Both the position numbers and the translations under genes were made by a program. This document shows positions 187 through 7,003 of a stretch of 64,000 bases of DNA, piece after piece. Positions within the stretch are counted from its first letter, which is position 1, and each line of letters opens with the position of its first letter. Location: contig NZ_BCSW01000007.1 in NCBI RefSeq assembly GCF_001571065.1, positions 43,010 to 107,009 on the forward strand, in the 5' to 3' direction. The DNA comes from Dietzia cinnamea NBRC 102147. Lineage in GTDB: Bacteria; Actinomycetota; Actinomycetes; Mycobacteriales; Mycobacteriaceae. The notes below the pieces were generated by a model. It ran no database searches. It was not told the DNA's origin and was given only the letters and a program-made list of their open reading frames with translations.

Positions 187-952
187 GAAGCGGCGCGTGC
201 GCGTGGTGGGCATCGGCTCCGGTGGGCTCGACCAGATCACCATCGAGGCCGCCGAGGCCCTGCGCGCGAGCGCCTATGCCCTCGCCGCCGTGAAGGGCCC
301 GGCCGACGCGTTGGTCGATCTCCGCGCGCGGCTGCTCGCCCGGCACGCCCCGGACGTGGAGCTGGTGGGCGTGCCCGATCCGGAGAGGGACCGCTCGTGG
401 TCGTCGACCTCCACCGACGGTGACTACCTCGGCGTGGTTCAGGACTGGCATGAGGCGCGCTCGCTGGCGTGGGAGCGCGCGATCGCCGCGCGGCCCGGCG
501 ACGTGGCGATCCCGGTGTGGGGCGACCCGGCGTTCTACGACTCGACGCTGCGGATTCTCGACCGGATCACCGAGCGCGGCCGCCTGGCGCTGGACGTGGA
601 GGTGCTGCCCGGGATCTCCGCGCTGCAGGTCCTGGCCGCCCGGCACCGACTGGTCCTGCACGAGATCGGCGGCACCGTCACCGTGACCACCGGCCGGAGG
701 CTGCGCGAGGTGGTGGCCGCTGGCGCGGACAACGTGGTGGTGATGCTCAACGCCGAGCCTCCGCCGGACGAGCTGGCCGACTGGCACATCTGGTGGGGCG
801 GCAACCTCGGCGACGGCGGCGAGACGCTGGTGGCCGGCCGCGTCGGCGACGTGCTGGGTGACCTGCGTGCCCACCGCGAGCGGCTGCGCGCCGAGTTCGG
901 CTGGGTGATGGACGTGTATCTGCTGCGACGCAGAGAAGGGACGACGGCCTGA
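176..952 (+). CDS. cobF: precorrin-6A synthase (deacetylating) CobF
   Basis: This is a 258-residue SAM-dependent tetrapyrrole methylase. The N-terminal glycine-rich strand VVGIGSGGLDQIT (about residues 10-22), the central VWGDPAFYDSTLRI and the following VLPGISALQVLAA match the CobF family, which methylates C-1 of the corrin ring and releases acetate in the aerobic cobalamin pathway. The length is normal for the family. The ATG lies inside the cobN tail (11-base overlap) and the stop shares one base with the cobA start, so the three genes appear to be one translationally coupled operon. No riboswitch is visible in front of this operon within the window. Confidence 0.93.
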   Translation: MATEKRRVRVVGIGSGGLDQITIEAAEALRASAYALAAVKGPADALVDLRARLLARHAPDVELVGVPDPERDRSWSSTSTDGDYLGVVQDWHEARSLAWERAIAARPGDVAIPVWGDPAFYDSTLRILDRITERGRLALDVEVLPGISALQVLAARHRLVLHEIGGTVTVTTGRRLREVVAAGADNVVVMLNAEPPPDELADWHIWWGGNLGDGGETLVAGRVGDVLGDLRAHRERLRAEFGWVMDVYLLRRREGTTA

Positions 953-1722
953 TGACGGGTGAGATCGAGTGCACCGGCCGGGTGGTGTTGGTCGGCGGCG
1001 GGCCGGGGGATCCGGGGCTCATGACCGTGGCCGGCCTCGACGCCGTCCGCAGCGCGGACGTGGTGGTGACCGACCGCTTGGGGCCGGTGTCGATCCTCGA
1101 CGAGCTCGATCCGGGCATCGAGGTGATCGGTGTGGGCAAGGTGCCGTTCGGTCCCGCCACCCCGCAGGAGGAGATCAACCGGATCCTCGTGGAGCAGGCC
1201 CGCCGCGGCCGGACCGTGGTGCGGCTCAAGGGCGGCGACAGCTTCCTGTTCGGTCGCGGCGCCGAGGAGCATCTCGCGTGCACGGCCGCAGGAGTGCCCG
1301 TCACGGTGATCCCGGGCGTGACTTCAGCGTTCTCAGTGCCCGCGCTCGTCGGGGTCCCGGCCACGCACCGTGGGCTCTCGCAGGGAGTGTCGGTGATCTC
1401 CGGACACGTCCCGCCCGGCGATCCGCAGTCGACTCTGGACTACGGCGCGCTCGCCAGGTCCGGGACGACGCTAGTGCTGCTCATGGCGGTGACGACCCTC
1501 CCGGCCATTACCGCCGAGCTGCTGGCCGAGGGGATGCCCGGGGGCACCCCGGCGGTGCTGATCGAGAACGGCTCGACGCCGGTGGAGCGGGTCTTGCGCG
1601 GGACGCTGGCGACCATCGCGCGGCAGGCGGCGGAGGCGGGGGTCGGGCCGCCCGCGATCACGGTGATCGGCGCGGTCGCCGGGCTGGCGGGGGAGCTGGT
1701 GCCCGGGCTGCCCTTCGCCTGA
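952..1722 (+). CDS. cobA: uroporphyrinogen-III C-methyltransferase (SUMT)
   Basis: This 256-residue protein shows the SUMT signatures VGGGPGDPGLMT near the N-terminus, GGDSFLFGRGAEE in the middle and VIPGVTSAFSVPALVGVPATH after it. SUMT transfers two methyl groups from SAM to uroporphyrinogen III to give precorrin-2, the entry step of cobalamin and siroheme synthesis. It carries only the methyltransferase domain, without a CysG-type siroheme synthase domain, which fits a role in the cobalamin branch. The start overlaps the cobF stop as TGATG. It is the last gene of the cob operon here; the next gene is on the opposite strand 460 bases away. Confidence 0.93.
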   Translation: MTGEIECTGRVVLVGGGPGDPGLMTVAGLDAVRSADVVVTDRLGPVSILDELDPGIEVIGVGKVPFGPATPQEEINRILVEQARRGRTVVRLKGGDSFLFGRGAEEHLACTAAGVPVTVIPGVTSAFSVPALVGVPATHRGLSQGVSVISGHVPPGDPQSTLDYGALARSGTTLVLLMAVTTLPAITAELLAEGMPGGTPAVLIENGSTPVERVLRGTLATIARQAAEAGVGPPAITVIGAVAGLAGELVPGLPFA

Positions 1723-2182
1723 CCCGGCCGGTCGCCTAACCTGGCCGGTCGCCCGGGGTCGCCGGGCGGCCCGTAGCCGCACGGTGGGCTGGGCCCTTCC
1801 TCGGCGAGTGGTCGCAAATGCTCGGGTCGCGAGAACGCGACCTGGGGGAACGTGAGCAGATGTGACCCCGCGATGAGGCCGCCCGAGGGACGCAGCGCCG
1901 TGCGCTGCACTCACCCGGCTACGTCCGATCGCCTGGCCCGTCAGAATGGCCCGTTCGGGCGGGATGGGCCTCCACTCGCGCGGCGACATCGTCGGGGGCA
2001 CTCAGCGTCGATGACAAGGAGAGGGAGCCGACGGGCAAGTGGGAGACGGCCTGTGTGAGTGACTATCGAGGAATCGGCCACTACCGTCGGACCTGAGCGC
2101 GGCACCGTGGGTGTCGGGCGAGTCGCAAGGCCAGGTGCACCCGGGGCAGACCGAAACCCTGGCTTTGCGCACGATCAGTAAG
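1723..2182. other. intergenic region between cobA and the Abi gene, no gene seen
   Basis: These 460 bases lie between two converging genes. Short frames on both strands are arginine-rich with no sensible start, and I see no gene. The region holds the palindromic element at 1801-1866, annotated separately. The remainder contains no repeat or RNA that I recognise. Confidence 0.6.
1801..1866. repeat. palindromic intergenic element with a 7-bp perfect core hairpin
   Basis: The core is GGTCGCG (1825-1831), loop AGAA, CGCGACC (1836-1842), a perfect stem. The flanks are also loosely complementary, with GTGGTCGCAAATG on the left and GTGAGCAGATGTGACC on the right, so the unit looks like a longer decayed palindrome. 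Its left edge GGCGAGTGGTCGCAAATG recurs at 49930-49947 with two mismatches, so this is a dispersed repeat. Lying downstream of cobA between converging genes, it may also act as a terminator. Confidence 0.55.
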
Positions 2183-2854
2183 TCAGATTTCCCACCTGAG
2201 TAGGCCAGGCACCTGACTACGTTTGTTGATGAACTCTGCCAGCGCGGGGTCGATACATCCCGCGACGCTGAGTAGGTCGCCGTAGCGAGCCTGCACATCT
2301 TCCGACCACACCCGGTGGTGGTGGCCGATCCGGTTCCGTAGCTCGCGCAGTCGTTTTACAGGGTCCTGAATGGTCGACTGGTCGCGCGTGGGTGCGTGGG
2401 GGAACGCGCCGGCGATATCGGGCCAGAGGAACATCTGGCGGCGGGAGACCATCTGGTGCCAGAACCCGAACGGCAGTTCGGAGATAATCTGGCCGGGGTT
2501 CAGCGGCTTGCGGTTTCGCCTGACGCGGCCGATGCTCTCGGCGATGTCTTTGTACGGCTGGCGGTGCTTATCTACTCCGTTGCCGTCGCGACCCAGCTCT
2601 CGGAAGTCGTCGAATACCCAATGGCCCGAACGTCCAAGCGCAAGATGACGTTCGGCCAAACGCGCATCGAGAGCATTGCGGAACGCCACCTCGAAGTAGG
2701 CGAACGATTGCCAGAAGGCGCCGGAGATCGCGACGTTCCACCGGTACAGTTCCATCGCCATGACGTGATCGCCCTGGGCGCGGGCGAGATAGTGCTGCAG
2801 CCGCGCCGGGGCGAAGTGGCGCTCATAGAACGCCCAGTTGCTCGCGCTGGTCAC
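2183..2854 (-). CDS. Abi family abortive-infection protein with HEPN motif
   Basis: The 223-residue product matches the Abi_2/AbiF-like family. ELPFGFWHQMVSRR (about 126-139) is the family's FGFW block, and ELRNRIGHHH (171-180) contains an R-x4-H motif (R173, H178), the signature of HEPN ribonucleases. Family knowledge suggests an RNA-cleaving toxin or a phage-exclusion protein; cleavage is not shown here. The GTG start at 2854 is preceded by GGAGG five bases upstream. It stands alone, with no partner gene on either side, but its 5' leader has strong RNA secondary structure (see 2889-2940). Rarer codons such as ATA and TTT are more frequent than in neighbours, which hints at transfer. Confidence 0.88.
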   Translation of the reverse strand: MTSASNWAFYERHFAPARLQHYLARAQGDHVMAMELYRWNVAISGAFWQSFAYFEVAFRNALDARLAERHLALGRSGHWVFDDFRELGRDGNGVDKHRQPYKDIAESIGRVRRNRKPLNPGQIISELPFGFWHQMVSRRQMFLWPDIAGAFPHAPTRDQSTIQDPVKRLRELRNRIGHHHRVWSEDVQARYGDLLSVAGCIDPALAEFINKRSQVPGLLRWEI

Positions 2855-2888
2855 ACCTGCCTCCGCTGGGTACTATTGGAGTCGAACA

Positions 2889-2940
2889 CCCCGGACCCGT
2901 CCCTGTAGTCCTCCTCGGAGGGCCGATCACACGGCCGGGG
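2889..2940 (-). ncRNA. structured leader RNA of the Abi gene, abiF-motif candidate
   Basis: Read on the minus strand, CCCCGG (2940-2935) pairs with CCGGGG (2894-2889) to close a 52-nt unit. Inside lie a hairpin GGCCG/CGGCC (2936-2932 with 2925-2921, 6-nt loop) and a hairpin CCUC/GAGG with tetraloop CGAG (2921-2918 with 2913-2910). The first hairpin competes with two closing pairs, so the fold may switch. Further down, CUCC (2882-2879) can pair with the GGAG of the ribosome binding site (2864-2861). A structured abiF RNA motif next to abiF-like genes is known from comparative genomics; assigning this leader to it is inference. A TTTAAAAG stretch just upstream could supply a -10 box. Confidence 0.55.
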
Positions 2941-3052
2941 TTCTGCTTTTAAACCGCTCCGGTTGCTGCTGCCGCGATTCCGTCCAGCCAGCTCGTCAGC
3001 GGCCCGTCTCGGGAGGGGACGCTACCCGGGAGTTCCGGCCCCGTGGGGCGGG

Positions 3053-3841
3053 CTACATTCGCCGAAGCAGCTCCGCCCGACGGTCGTCCGGGGCGCGGCG
3101 CGGGCAGCTCGCGCACTTGCCGCCGTCGGTCGCCACATAGATGAGGCAACACGAACTGCGGCGGACGAACCGTCGCGTCCGGTCGGGGCCCTCCACGTCG
3201 ACGTAGCGGGCCGGCAGCAGCGGTGGCCTGCACACAGCGAGAGCGAGCTCGACGCCGCGGTTCTCGTCGCCTGCGGCCCGGCCAGCCTCGAGCGCCCGGT
3301 TGGCGATGGAGTCCGTGGCGATCGCCCACAACGCCCGCGGTGCCGCGCCCGAGACCTCCGCGAGGGCGGCGATCACCTCGCTGTGGGCCTCCACCAGCGC
3401 GTCGGCGAACGCCGCGACCGACGGAAGGAGTCGATCAGACCGCGCCGAGTGGAGATAGCCGTTCGGCTGCAGCGAGACGCTGAGCCGCCCCGGGCGGGGA
3501 TCGGGCGCGCGTCCGGTGGCGAGCAGCATCGCCAGCGGCGCCGCGACCAGCGTTGAGCTGGCCGAATACCACCACAAAGTCCCGTTCACCCGCGGATCGT
3601 CATGGTTCCAGCGCCGGCCGGTGTCCTCCACCCGCCGGGCCAGCCACCGCGGGTCCGTCAGCACCTCCCCGGGCAGGACGGTTGAGGCGTGCTCGATGGT
3701 GCGGGCGAAGTCGCCGAGGAGGGCCCAGGCGCCCGCATACGCGGCTGCCACCGTGCCGGGGGTGCGGAGATCGTCGTCGTCGCCGTCGTCACCCACCGGC
3801 TCCCCACCCACGCTCGCGCCACCCACCGCTCCGTCACGCAT
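3053..3841 (-). CDS. FhuF-like (2Fe-2S) protein, possible ferric or corrinoid reductase
   Basis: This 262-residue protein ends with RRSSCCLIYVATDGGKCASC, that is CC-x10-C-x2-C, the [2Fe-2S] site of FhuF-type ferric-siderophore reductases. The body is alpha-helical with few other recognisable motifs. I chose the ATG at 3841 because it lies 8 bases inside the ATPase gene; the reading upstream of it is a shadow of that gene. It is the last gene of the riboswitch-led transporter operon. FhuF proteins normally release iron from siderophores in the cytoplasm. Because the operon answers to cobalamin, this one may instead reduce imported corrinoid or be an iron protein caught up in the operon; neither is proven. 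Confidence 0.75.
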   Translation of the reverse strand: MRDGAVGGASVGGEPVGDDGDDDDLRTPGTVAAAYAGAWALLGDFARTIEHASTVLPGEVLTDPRWLARRVEDTGRRWNHDDPRVNGTLWWYSASSTLVAAPLAMLLATGRAPDPRPGRLSVSLQPNGYLHSARSDRLLPSVAAFADALVEAHSEVIAALAEVSGAAPRALWAIATDSIANRALEAGRAAGDENRGVELALAVCRPPLLPARYVDVEGPDRTRRFVRRSSCCLIYVATDGGKCASCPRRAPDDRRAELLRRM

Positions 3842-4616
3842 CGGCCAGCCCCACCACGTCGAGGGTGCGGCGACCGTCCGGCCCCGCCCGTACCTGGCCG
3901 CGCACGCCGAACACCTCCCGCAGCACCGCGGCGTCCAGGACCTCCTCCGGCGCGCCCGTCGCGACCAGGCGCCCGCGGTGCAGGACGGCGATGGCGTCGC
4001 AGTACTCGGTCGCCATCCGCAGGTCGTGGAGTGTGAGCAGCACCGCAAGTCCGCCGGCCGCGAGCTCGCGCAGCAGCGCCAGGACCGACAGTTGCTGGTG
4101 GAGGTCGAGGTGGTTGGTGGGCTCGTCCAGCAGGAGGACGTCGGGCTGCTGGGCGAGCGTGCGCGCGATCGACACCCGCTGCCGCTCCCCGCCGGACAGG
4201 GCGAGCACGTCCCGGTCGGCGAGCTCGGTCAGCCCGACCTGCGCGAGGACGGTCTCGACGACCGCGGAGTCGTCGGCGCCGAGGGGCTCGAACGGCCCGC
4301 GGGTGACCGTCCGGCCCAGGCGCACCGACTCGCGGACCGTGATGCCGCCCAGCGAGACCGGCTCCTGCGTGCTCGCCCCCACCGCGCGGGCGAGCGTACG
4401 GCGGCGCAGCGAGCTGATGTCCGCGCCGTCGATGGTGACGTGACCCGCCGTGGTGGGCAGCGCTCGGTAACACGCGCGCAGCAAGGTCGTCTTGCCGCTG
4501 CCGTTCGGCCCGACCAGGGCCGTGACCAGACCGGGAGTGACGGTGAGGTCGACGCCGTCGAGGATCTGCCGGCCGCCCAGGCGGGCGGAGACACGGTCCG
4601 CGCTGAGGGTGGTCAT
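3834..4616 (-). CDS. ABC transporter ATP-binding protein, BtuD/FecE type
   Basis: The 260-residue ATPase has Walker A GPNGSGKTT (about residues 34-42), signature LSGGERQRVS, Walker B VLLLDEPTNHLD and the switch histidine in LTLHDLRMA. It is the energising subunit for the permease encoded just upstream, whose stop overlaps its ATG as ATGA. The family serves siderophores, heme and cobalamin, and sequence alone does not settle which. The cobalamin riboswitch at the head of the operon makes B12 or a corrinoid precursor the best guess. Confidence 0.9.
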   Translation of the reverse strand: MTTLSADRVSARLGGRQILDGVDLTVTPGLVTALVGPNGSGKTTLLRACYRALPTTAGHVTIDGADISSLRRRTLARAVGASTQEPVSLGGITVRESVRLGRTVTRGPFEPLGADDSAVVETVLAQVGLTELADRDVLALSGGERQRVSIARTLAQQPDVLLLDEPTNHLDLHQQLSVLALLRELAAGGLAVLLTLHDLRMATEYCDAIAVLHRGRLVATGAPEEVLDAAVLREVFGVRGQVRAGPDGRRTLDVVGLADA

Positions 4617-6884: not shown

Positions 6885-7003
6885 GTCAGGCCTCCGGGCA
6901 GGCGATCGGGCTCGCCGCCACTTGTGGTAGCGGCACACCGTTGCGGGTCAGCGCCGGATTCTCACCGGTCTTTCCCTGCGTCCGGAAGTCGGTAGTTCAT
7001 GTC
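6885..7003 (-). promoter_or_regulatory. cobalamin (B12) riboswitch
   Basis: On the minus strand the region contains, in order, CAGGGAAAGACCGGTGAG, AATCCGGCGCTGACCCGCAA, CGGT and the B12-box-like GAGCCCGATCGCCTGCCC (6911-6894). These are the conserved core blocks of the cobalamin riboswitch in the expected order and spacing. It lies at the 5' end of the importer operon at 3053-6761 and should switch that operon off when B12 is plentiful. A possible -10 box TATGCT sits at 7010-7005, giving a transcript that begins at the riboswitch. The exact ends are estimates. Confidence 0.92.

Follow-up and report, generated by a model that had tools for sequence, protein, structure and literature searches.

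A predicted AbiF-type toxin gene and an opposite-strand hairpin RNA in Dietzia cinnamea, with solitary copies of the RNA in viral sequences

INTRODUCTION

The RNA-guided nuclease Cas13 is reported to descend from pairs of an AbiF protein and a small RNA (PMC12373285; PMC12737573), and the C. difficile AbiF survey names mainly Bacillota and Pseudomonadota (PMC12373285). Here we analyse a locus from Dietzia cinnamea NBRC 102147, located in a stretch of 64,000 nucleotides (contig NZ_BCSW01000007.1, positions 43,010 to 107,009; hereafter the window), which carries an abi gene and, on the opposite strand, a predicted gene for a hairpin RNA. Judging by sequence, we consider it probable that the two form a cassette whose RNA, of ∼67 nucleotides, would bind the predicted AbiF-type HEPN toxin directly and hold it inactive.

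The closest described systems, PbAbiF-AbiFr (8VZ6) and C. difficile AbiF-RCd22 (PMC12373285), resemble this locus in having a single toxin gene that encodes a HEPN-type Abi protein with an R-x4-H motif and a similar predicted fold, and in the small hairpin RNA with a C-rich closing stem that adjoins the gene. The C. difficile RNA lies on the same strand as its gene and is co-transcribed with it, whereas the Dietzia RNA is divergent from abi; the RNA of these described systems has two motifs (PMC12373285), whereas the Dietzia RNA is a single copy unmatched by the Rfam abiF model RF03085. The RF03085 RNA is alike in its C-rich closing stem of ∼6 base pairs with unpaired bases on the 3′ side, and a UCAAA-like stretch ahead of the closing stem, common to AbiF RNA and the Dietzia RNA, is only suggestive of kinship. 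An initial annotation of the locus had named a match to RF03085 as a check, and the covariance model found none in the window (gathering threshold or E≤10), nor in 18 actinobacterial loci (E≤10); it does match phiC2, and our R1 model found no match in the phiC2 locus. In the literature covered, which excludes subscription papers, none of the titles and abstract openings listed describes this RNA.

The ToxIN toxin belongs to a protein family other than Abi. Type III ToxIN and the pseudo-ToxI of phage PhiTE are comparable in that the antitoxin is an RNA and the phage bears an antitoxin-like RNA without the toxin, but ToxI is a tandem repeat and the Dietzia RNA a single hairpin (PMC3475682). Racr, the RNA-based anti-CRISPRs, are likewise solitary viral copies of a host defence RNA, which mimic CRISPR repeats (PMC10651486), whereas the RNA here is a candidate antitoxin.

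RESULTS AND DISCUSSION

A predicted toxin gene and a predicted RNA gene in divergent order

The features of the locus, in window coordinates, are as follows.

2183–2960: whole cassette, toxin gene and RNA gene, recurring in unrelated surroundings (blastn).
2183–2854, minus strand: abi gene, encoding a 223-residue member of the Abi_2 family that is predicted to be an AbiF-type HEPN RNase toxin (open reading frame, profile, motif, predicted fold).
2321–2338, minus strand: codons of R173-x4-H178, the HEPN-type catalytic motif (invariant in alignment A1; coordinates counted from the open reading frame).
2848–2853, plus strand: TGGTCA, a weak −35-like hexamer at 17-nucleotide spacing that overlaps the abi start codon (TTG in 12 of 16 aligned loci, absent from the window).
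2871–2876, plus strand: TACTAT, predicted −10 box of the RNA (TANNNT in all 16 loci).
2884–2950, plus strand: predicted small RNA of ∼67 nucleotides (start inferred from the −10 box; fold; match of the covariance model R2 at 2876–2958, plus strand, 94.8 bits, the window being one of the rows from which R2 was built).
2888–2941, plus strand: hairpin with stems P1 (2888–2894/2935–2941) and P2 (2897–2900/2931–2934) and the variable stem P3 (2908–2913/2918–2923) (pair counts on alignment A3, and fold).
2901–2907 and 2924–2930, plus strand: 5′ side (CCCUGUA) and 3′ side of a conserved internal loop (alignments A3 and A5).
2941–2950, plus strand: T-rich, terminator-like tail behind the closing stem (7 T of 10).

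The abi open reading frame starts with GTG, and its description in the initial annotation as a 223-residue Abi gene with R173-x4-H178 holds. The Pfam Abi_2 profile (PF07751) matched the protein with E 3.2e-5 and 24.7 bits, narrowly missing the curated cut-off of 25.6 bits; no NCBIfam profile matched it, and the single-protein PADLOC profiles PD-T4-5 (E 2.3e-6, 25.1 bits) and AbiD (E 0.0064, 14.2 bits) did so only weakly. Both R and H of the motif, named as HEPN-type in PMC12373285, are invariant in the 33 homologues of alignment A1, picked among 120 matches listed of 236 found, and the predicted fold of the protein resembles AbiF. The D. massiliensis protein is 100% identical to that of the window.

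The closing stem CCCCGG/CCGGGG, which the initial annotation had assigned to a leader of the abi mRNA, was confirmed at 2889–2940, but four lines of evidence place the RNA on the plus strand, opposite abi. All 16 aligned rows have a TANNNT box 10–14 nucleotides 5′ of the closing stem, compared with a single row for the other flank, used as a control, and with a mean of 1.04 and a maximum of 5 in 2000 shuffles; TTG precedes this box by 16–19 nucleotides in 12 rows, that of the window not among them. The tail 3′ of the stem contains 6–8 T of 10 across the 16 loci. The plus strand has eight G-U pairs versus one on the abi strand, with abi-strand mismatches turning into plus-strand G-U pairs. Finally, the 68-nucleotide plus-strand RNA is predicted to fold exactly into the structure supported by covariation (z-score −1.91), whereas the 146-nucleotide abi-strand region folds no better than its shuffles (z-score +1.06), the two stretches compared being of unequal length.

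The position of the element in Microlunatus (locus L018) is informative, as there the RNA lies just downstream of abi and on the abi strand, with its own TAGGAT box and T-rich tail, so that it cannot be a leader or an antisense RNA and would therefore act in trans. The RNA is thus not part of the abi 5′ untranslated region, being on the opposite strand in the window and downstream of the gene in Microlunatus. The most obvious candidate for its target would be the adjacent protein.

Conservation and covariation of the RNA

The RNA element is present in 15 of 18 homologous loci of named genomes, with proteins down to 40% identical to the query; the three loci lacking it (L019, L023 and L024) are partial abi matches beginning at residue 35, 99 and 166, respectively. 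Over these 15 loci the plus-strand core CCCCGGAACCGTCCCTG...GATCANACGGCCGGGG is almost constant, and the tip hairpin varies through paired changes. On the plus-strand alignment A3, in which the rows of the window and D. massiliensis are near-copies, 97.8% of the 269 cells of the structure are paired and both sides have changed at 9 of 17 pairs (26 cells), while RNAalifold, applied to 16 sequences, reported double changes at 8 pairs. None of 500 shuffles of A3 equalled four of the five measures used, and 17 equalled the fifth, the number of pair types; sliding the structure along the alignment reduced pairing to just 33–53%. In a wider alignment of 48 R2 matches, which was fitted to the model and is hence biased towards it, double changes were found at 15 of 17 pairs. 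Because the element recurs in 15 of 18 loci with paired changes kept, it is more than a chance feature.

The conserved structured RNA at abi proposed in the initial annotation is therefore borne out in its closing stem, its recurrence and its compensatory changes, but not in its placement on the abi strand. What the homologues support is a single long hairpin, interrupted by a conserved internal loop, in place of two inner hairpins competing for bases, and the CUCC proposed to mask the ribosome binding site lies within P3, a variable stem, and is unconserved (alignment A2). That annotation asked for failure of both the abiF match and compensatory changes before it was refuted, and compensatory changes are present; its core idea of one HEPN-type Abi gene with one restraining RNA fits the evidence, whereas the leader mechanism does not.

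Linkage of the RNA with abi in host genomes

The covariance model R2, which describes the plus-strand RNA, was tried on loci outside its building set. In a plasmid sample of 11 loci, fetched for their Abi protein among 30 matches listed of 682 records, R2 matched upstream of and divergent to abi in nine: three at 88–94 bits, four from Streptomyces at 36–46 bits, one from Pseudonocardia at 28 bits and one from Micromonospora at 23 bits. No match was found upstream of abi in Rhodococcus L036 and Micromonospora maris L039.

A blind R2 search of 101 genomes of relatives, 394 genomes of the class and 397 of the order, samples that overlap, yielded 26 distinct genomes at ≥30 bits, five of which hold sequences from which R2 was built (window, L007, L008, L012 and L016 types). 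An Abi homologue adjoins the RNA in 24 of the 26. In one other genome (L249) the contig ends within ∼290 nucleotides of the RNA, and in the last (L244) no Abi open reading frame was found. Host-genome matches below 30 bits are treated as noise; they occurred in nine further genomes, with abi adjacent only in G085. Starting instead from the protein, an Abi homologue at E≤1e-8 was found in 54 of the 394 class genomes, and among 29 new loci, which represent the better matches, R2 matched upstream and divergent in 21 (E up to 0.05); in a further four (L083, L087, L089 and L090) a CCCCGG...CCGGGG element was seen by eye. A conserved structured RNA thus stands beside the abi gene, and, on the sequences compared, the two are jointly conserved over many Actinobacteria and recur as a single unit.

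Several loci depart from the usual arrangement. Two copies of the RNA were seen in each of L068 (2173–2259 and 3415–3485), L071 (2173–2259 and 490–560) and L072 (2167–2238 and 3538–3609), and the genome of L071 has two Abi genes in tandem. On the host contig L244 an R2 match of 38.4 bits (1501–1581, plus strand) lies in a 3.1-kb stretch with no Abi open reading frame, possibly a solitary antitoxin or a remnant. In another Dietzia genome a weak R2 match of 17.1 bits (L005 2176–2253, plus strand), upstream of and divergent to a 31%-identical Abi homologue, is perhaps a diverged version of the abi-RNA pair.

Solitary copies of the RNA in viral sequences

Exact-pattern scans of IMG/VR returned at least 139 viral loci, 61 of which are matched by R2 at E≤0.0012. 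Of these at least 61 matches, 46 reach ≥40 bits, representing 23 distinct cores, a few of which differ just by truncation or one base. One control pattern, in which the stem was kept and the core shuffled, had no matches in IMG/VR versus 14 for the true core. In alignment A5, comprising 21 viral sequences and the window, UCCCUG is invariant, double changes occur at 10 of 16 pairs and 97.0% of cells are paired; no shuffle of 500 equalled four of the measures and 35 equalled the fifth. The viral copies thus hold the loop and vary the stems in pairs, as expected if a protein reads the loop.

The A1 profile found no Abi open reading frame at E≤1 in the 61 viral stretches carrying the RNA, and when 29 of these records were searched with it over their whole length none gave an Abi, with four of four plasmid controls found. 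The corresponding PF07751 search (0 of 29) counts for little, as this profile proved too weak a whole-genome query, missing even the abi gene of the window. A protein search of the viral contigs for Abi relatives found none, and tblastn of Abi against 50,697 phage records returned seven, all below 60% identity and none an actinophage by name. A candidate antitoxin RNA thus occurs on viral records on which no toxin gene was found, records that may be fragments and include many near-duplicates. Among the neighbouring proteins scanned were capsid and prohead protease (L111 and L136) and one recombination exonuclease (L151), several others having no match.

In 12 of the 61 viral stretches the RNA lies ≤12 nucleotides from a tRNA gene (Trp, Arg, Asn, Leu, Glu or Met), always on the same strand; seven of these 12 RNAs score below 40 bits. 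A TANNNT box ahead of the stem was present in only 16 of the 46 viral copies at ≥40 bits, so some viral RNAs may be cut from longer transcripts. By eye, tRNA-end-like sequence uncalled by ARAGORN was seen just 5′ of the viral RNA in L111, L107, L112, L207, L193, L184, L092 and L156.

When five RNA queries were compared with named phages by blastn, the matches listed were all short, and the loci L231–L234 contained no convincing element, L234 scoring 15.7 bits on a terminator-like stem. The core CCCCGGAACGATCCCTGCG was noticed directly behind tRNA-Trp in the Streptomyces phages Paolo, Celia and Urza (L228 ∼1501–1545; L229 and L230 ∼1301–1345), where R2 scores ∼9 bits even with filters off; it is a lead that we excluded from the counts. 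The viral contig L028 likewise has the RNA behind tRNA-Trp.

Proposed mechanism and alternative explanations

As read from sequence, the cassette has two parts in divergent order, the RNA showing a conserved structure and loop, a −10-like box and a T-rich tail. In the mechanism we favour, the predicted HEPN ribonuclease toxin would cut RNA when unbound, and the RNA, made from its own predicted promoter on the opposite strand, would bind the Abi protein and keep it inactive. Infection would tip this balance, and the cell would stop growing or die. Weighing against the plus-strand assignment of the RNA, a generic promoter and terminator scan found nothing at this RNA. The phage copies would be decoy antitoxins that occupy the toxin; a viral RNA without a toxin is decoy-like, and the reports on pseudo-ToxI (PMC3475682) and Racr (PMC10651486) provide precedents. 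We lean, with modest confidence, towards a more general reading, in which an actinobacterial AbiF-type toxin is widespread and silenced by a divergent hairpin RNA family outside Rfam 15, and phages have repeatedly captured just the RNA, in many cases next to tRNA genes, for use as a toxin-disarming decoy, which would amount to a general RNA-based anti-Abi strategy. If true, a decoy RNA would let a phage switch off Abi defence, and the solitary phage copies make phage escape from such systems directly testable. The large branch in Actinobacteria, with an RNA family of its own, its divergent order and one locus with the RNA unlinked from the mRNA, offers clean material on what a HEPN protein reads in RNA.

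With regard to the phage copies only, the RNA might serve a purpose of the phage itself, such as transcript end, tRNA processing or superinfection control; the host system might then have borrowed it from phages, or phages from the host. The many copies in or beside tRNA genes and the scarcity of −10-like boxes fit this explanation, which we nevertheless find rather doubtful, given that the phage copies share their internal loop with the host RNAs proposed as antitoxins, a likeness that goes beyond a mere hairpin with a tail.

It is quite improbable that the RNA works as a guide, sensor or activator and not as an inhibitor, with the phage copies as triggers detected by the defence. Inhibition by the RNA is here deduced from sequence and AbiF-type proteins are the reported ancestors of Cas13, as noted above, but the RNA acts as an inhibitor in the nearest studied systems (PMC12373285; PMC12737573), what varies is a short hairpin and not a free guide, and a trigger of host suicide retained in many phages would presumably be costly.

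We regard as very improbable a cis-antisense regulator, with an abi mRNA that starts upstream of the RNA gene and a small RNA that pairs with its 5′ untranslated region to block expression. The usual divergent, upstream position of the RNA gene means that a long abi mRNA would include its complement; this arrangement is broken in Microlunatus, the internal-loop bases are more conserved than antisense pairing requires, with stems varying in pairs, and the phage copies are distant from any abi found.

A structured leader or attenuator on the abi strand, masking the ribosome binding site, retains next to no credence: the element does lie ≤35 nucleotides from the abi start codon, and folding is possible on the abi strand as well, but the strand tests and Microlunatus rule it out, the CUCC is unconserved, and all 12 viral copies ≤12 nucleotides from a tRNA gene share the strand of the tRNA in the plus-strand sense.

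Mobility and surroundings of the cassette

Comparison of window positions 901–4300 with Lolliginicoccus L008 by blastn gave a similarity of 80.9% over exactly 2183–2960, a shared block running from the abi stop codon to just beyond the RNA tail. At the sequence level, abi and the RNA move together as one unit. In Dietzia L003 (1439–1524 and the open reading frame behind it), ∼207 base pairs corresponding to window 2688–2894 are missing, a loss that takes in the beginning of abi and, on the RNA side, the promoter-like box and the 5′ end. An in-frame stop interrupts what is left, and we read this locus as a decayed copy of the cassette. On the Dietzia plasmid pI (L029 1216–3669) the cassette adjoins a Shedu nuclease gene, with methyltransferase and DUF262 genes near. 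Elsewhere in the window, positions 6892–6987 on the minus strand match the AdoCbl-II (cobalamin) riboswitch with 37.8 bits, compared with a gathering score of 36.5.
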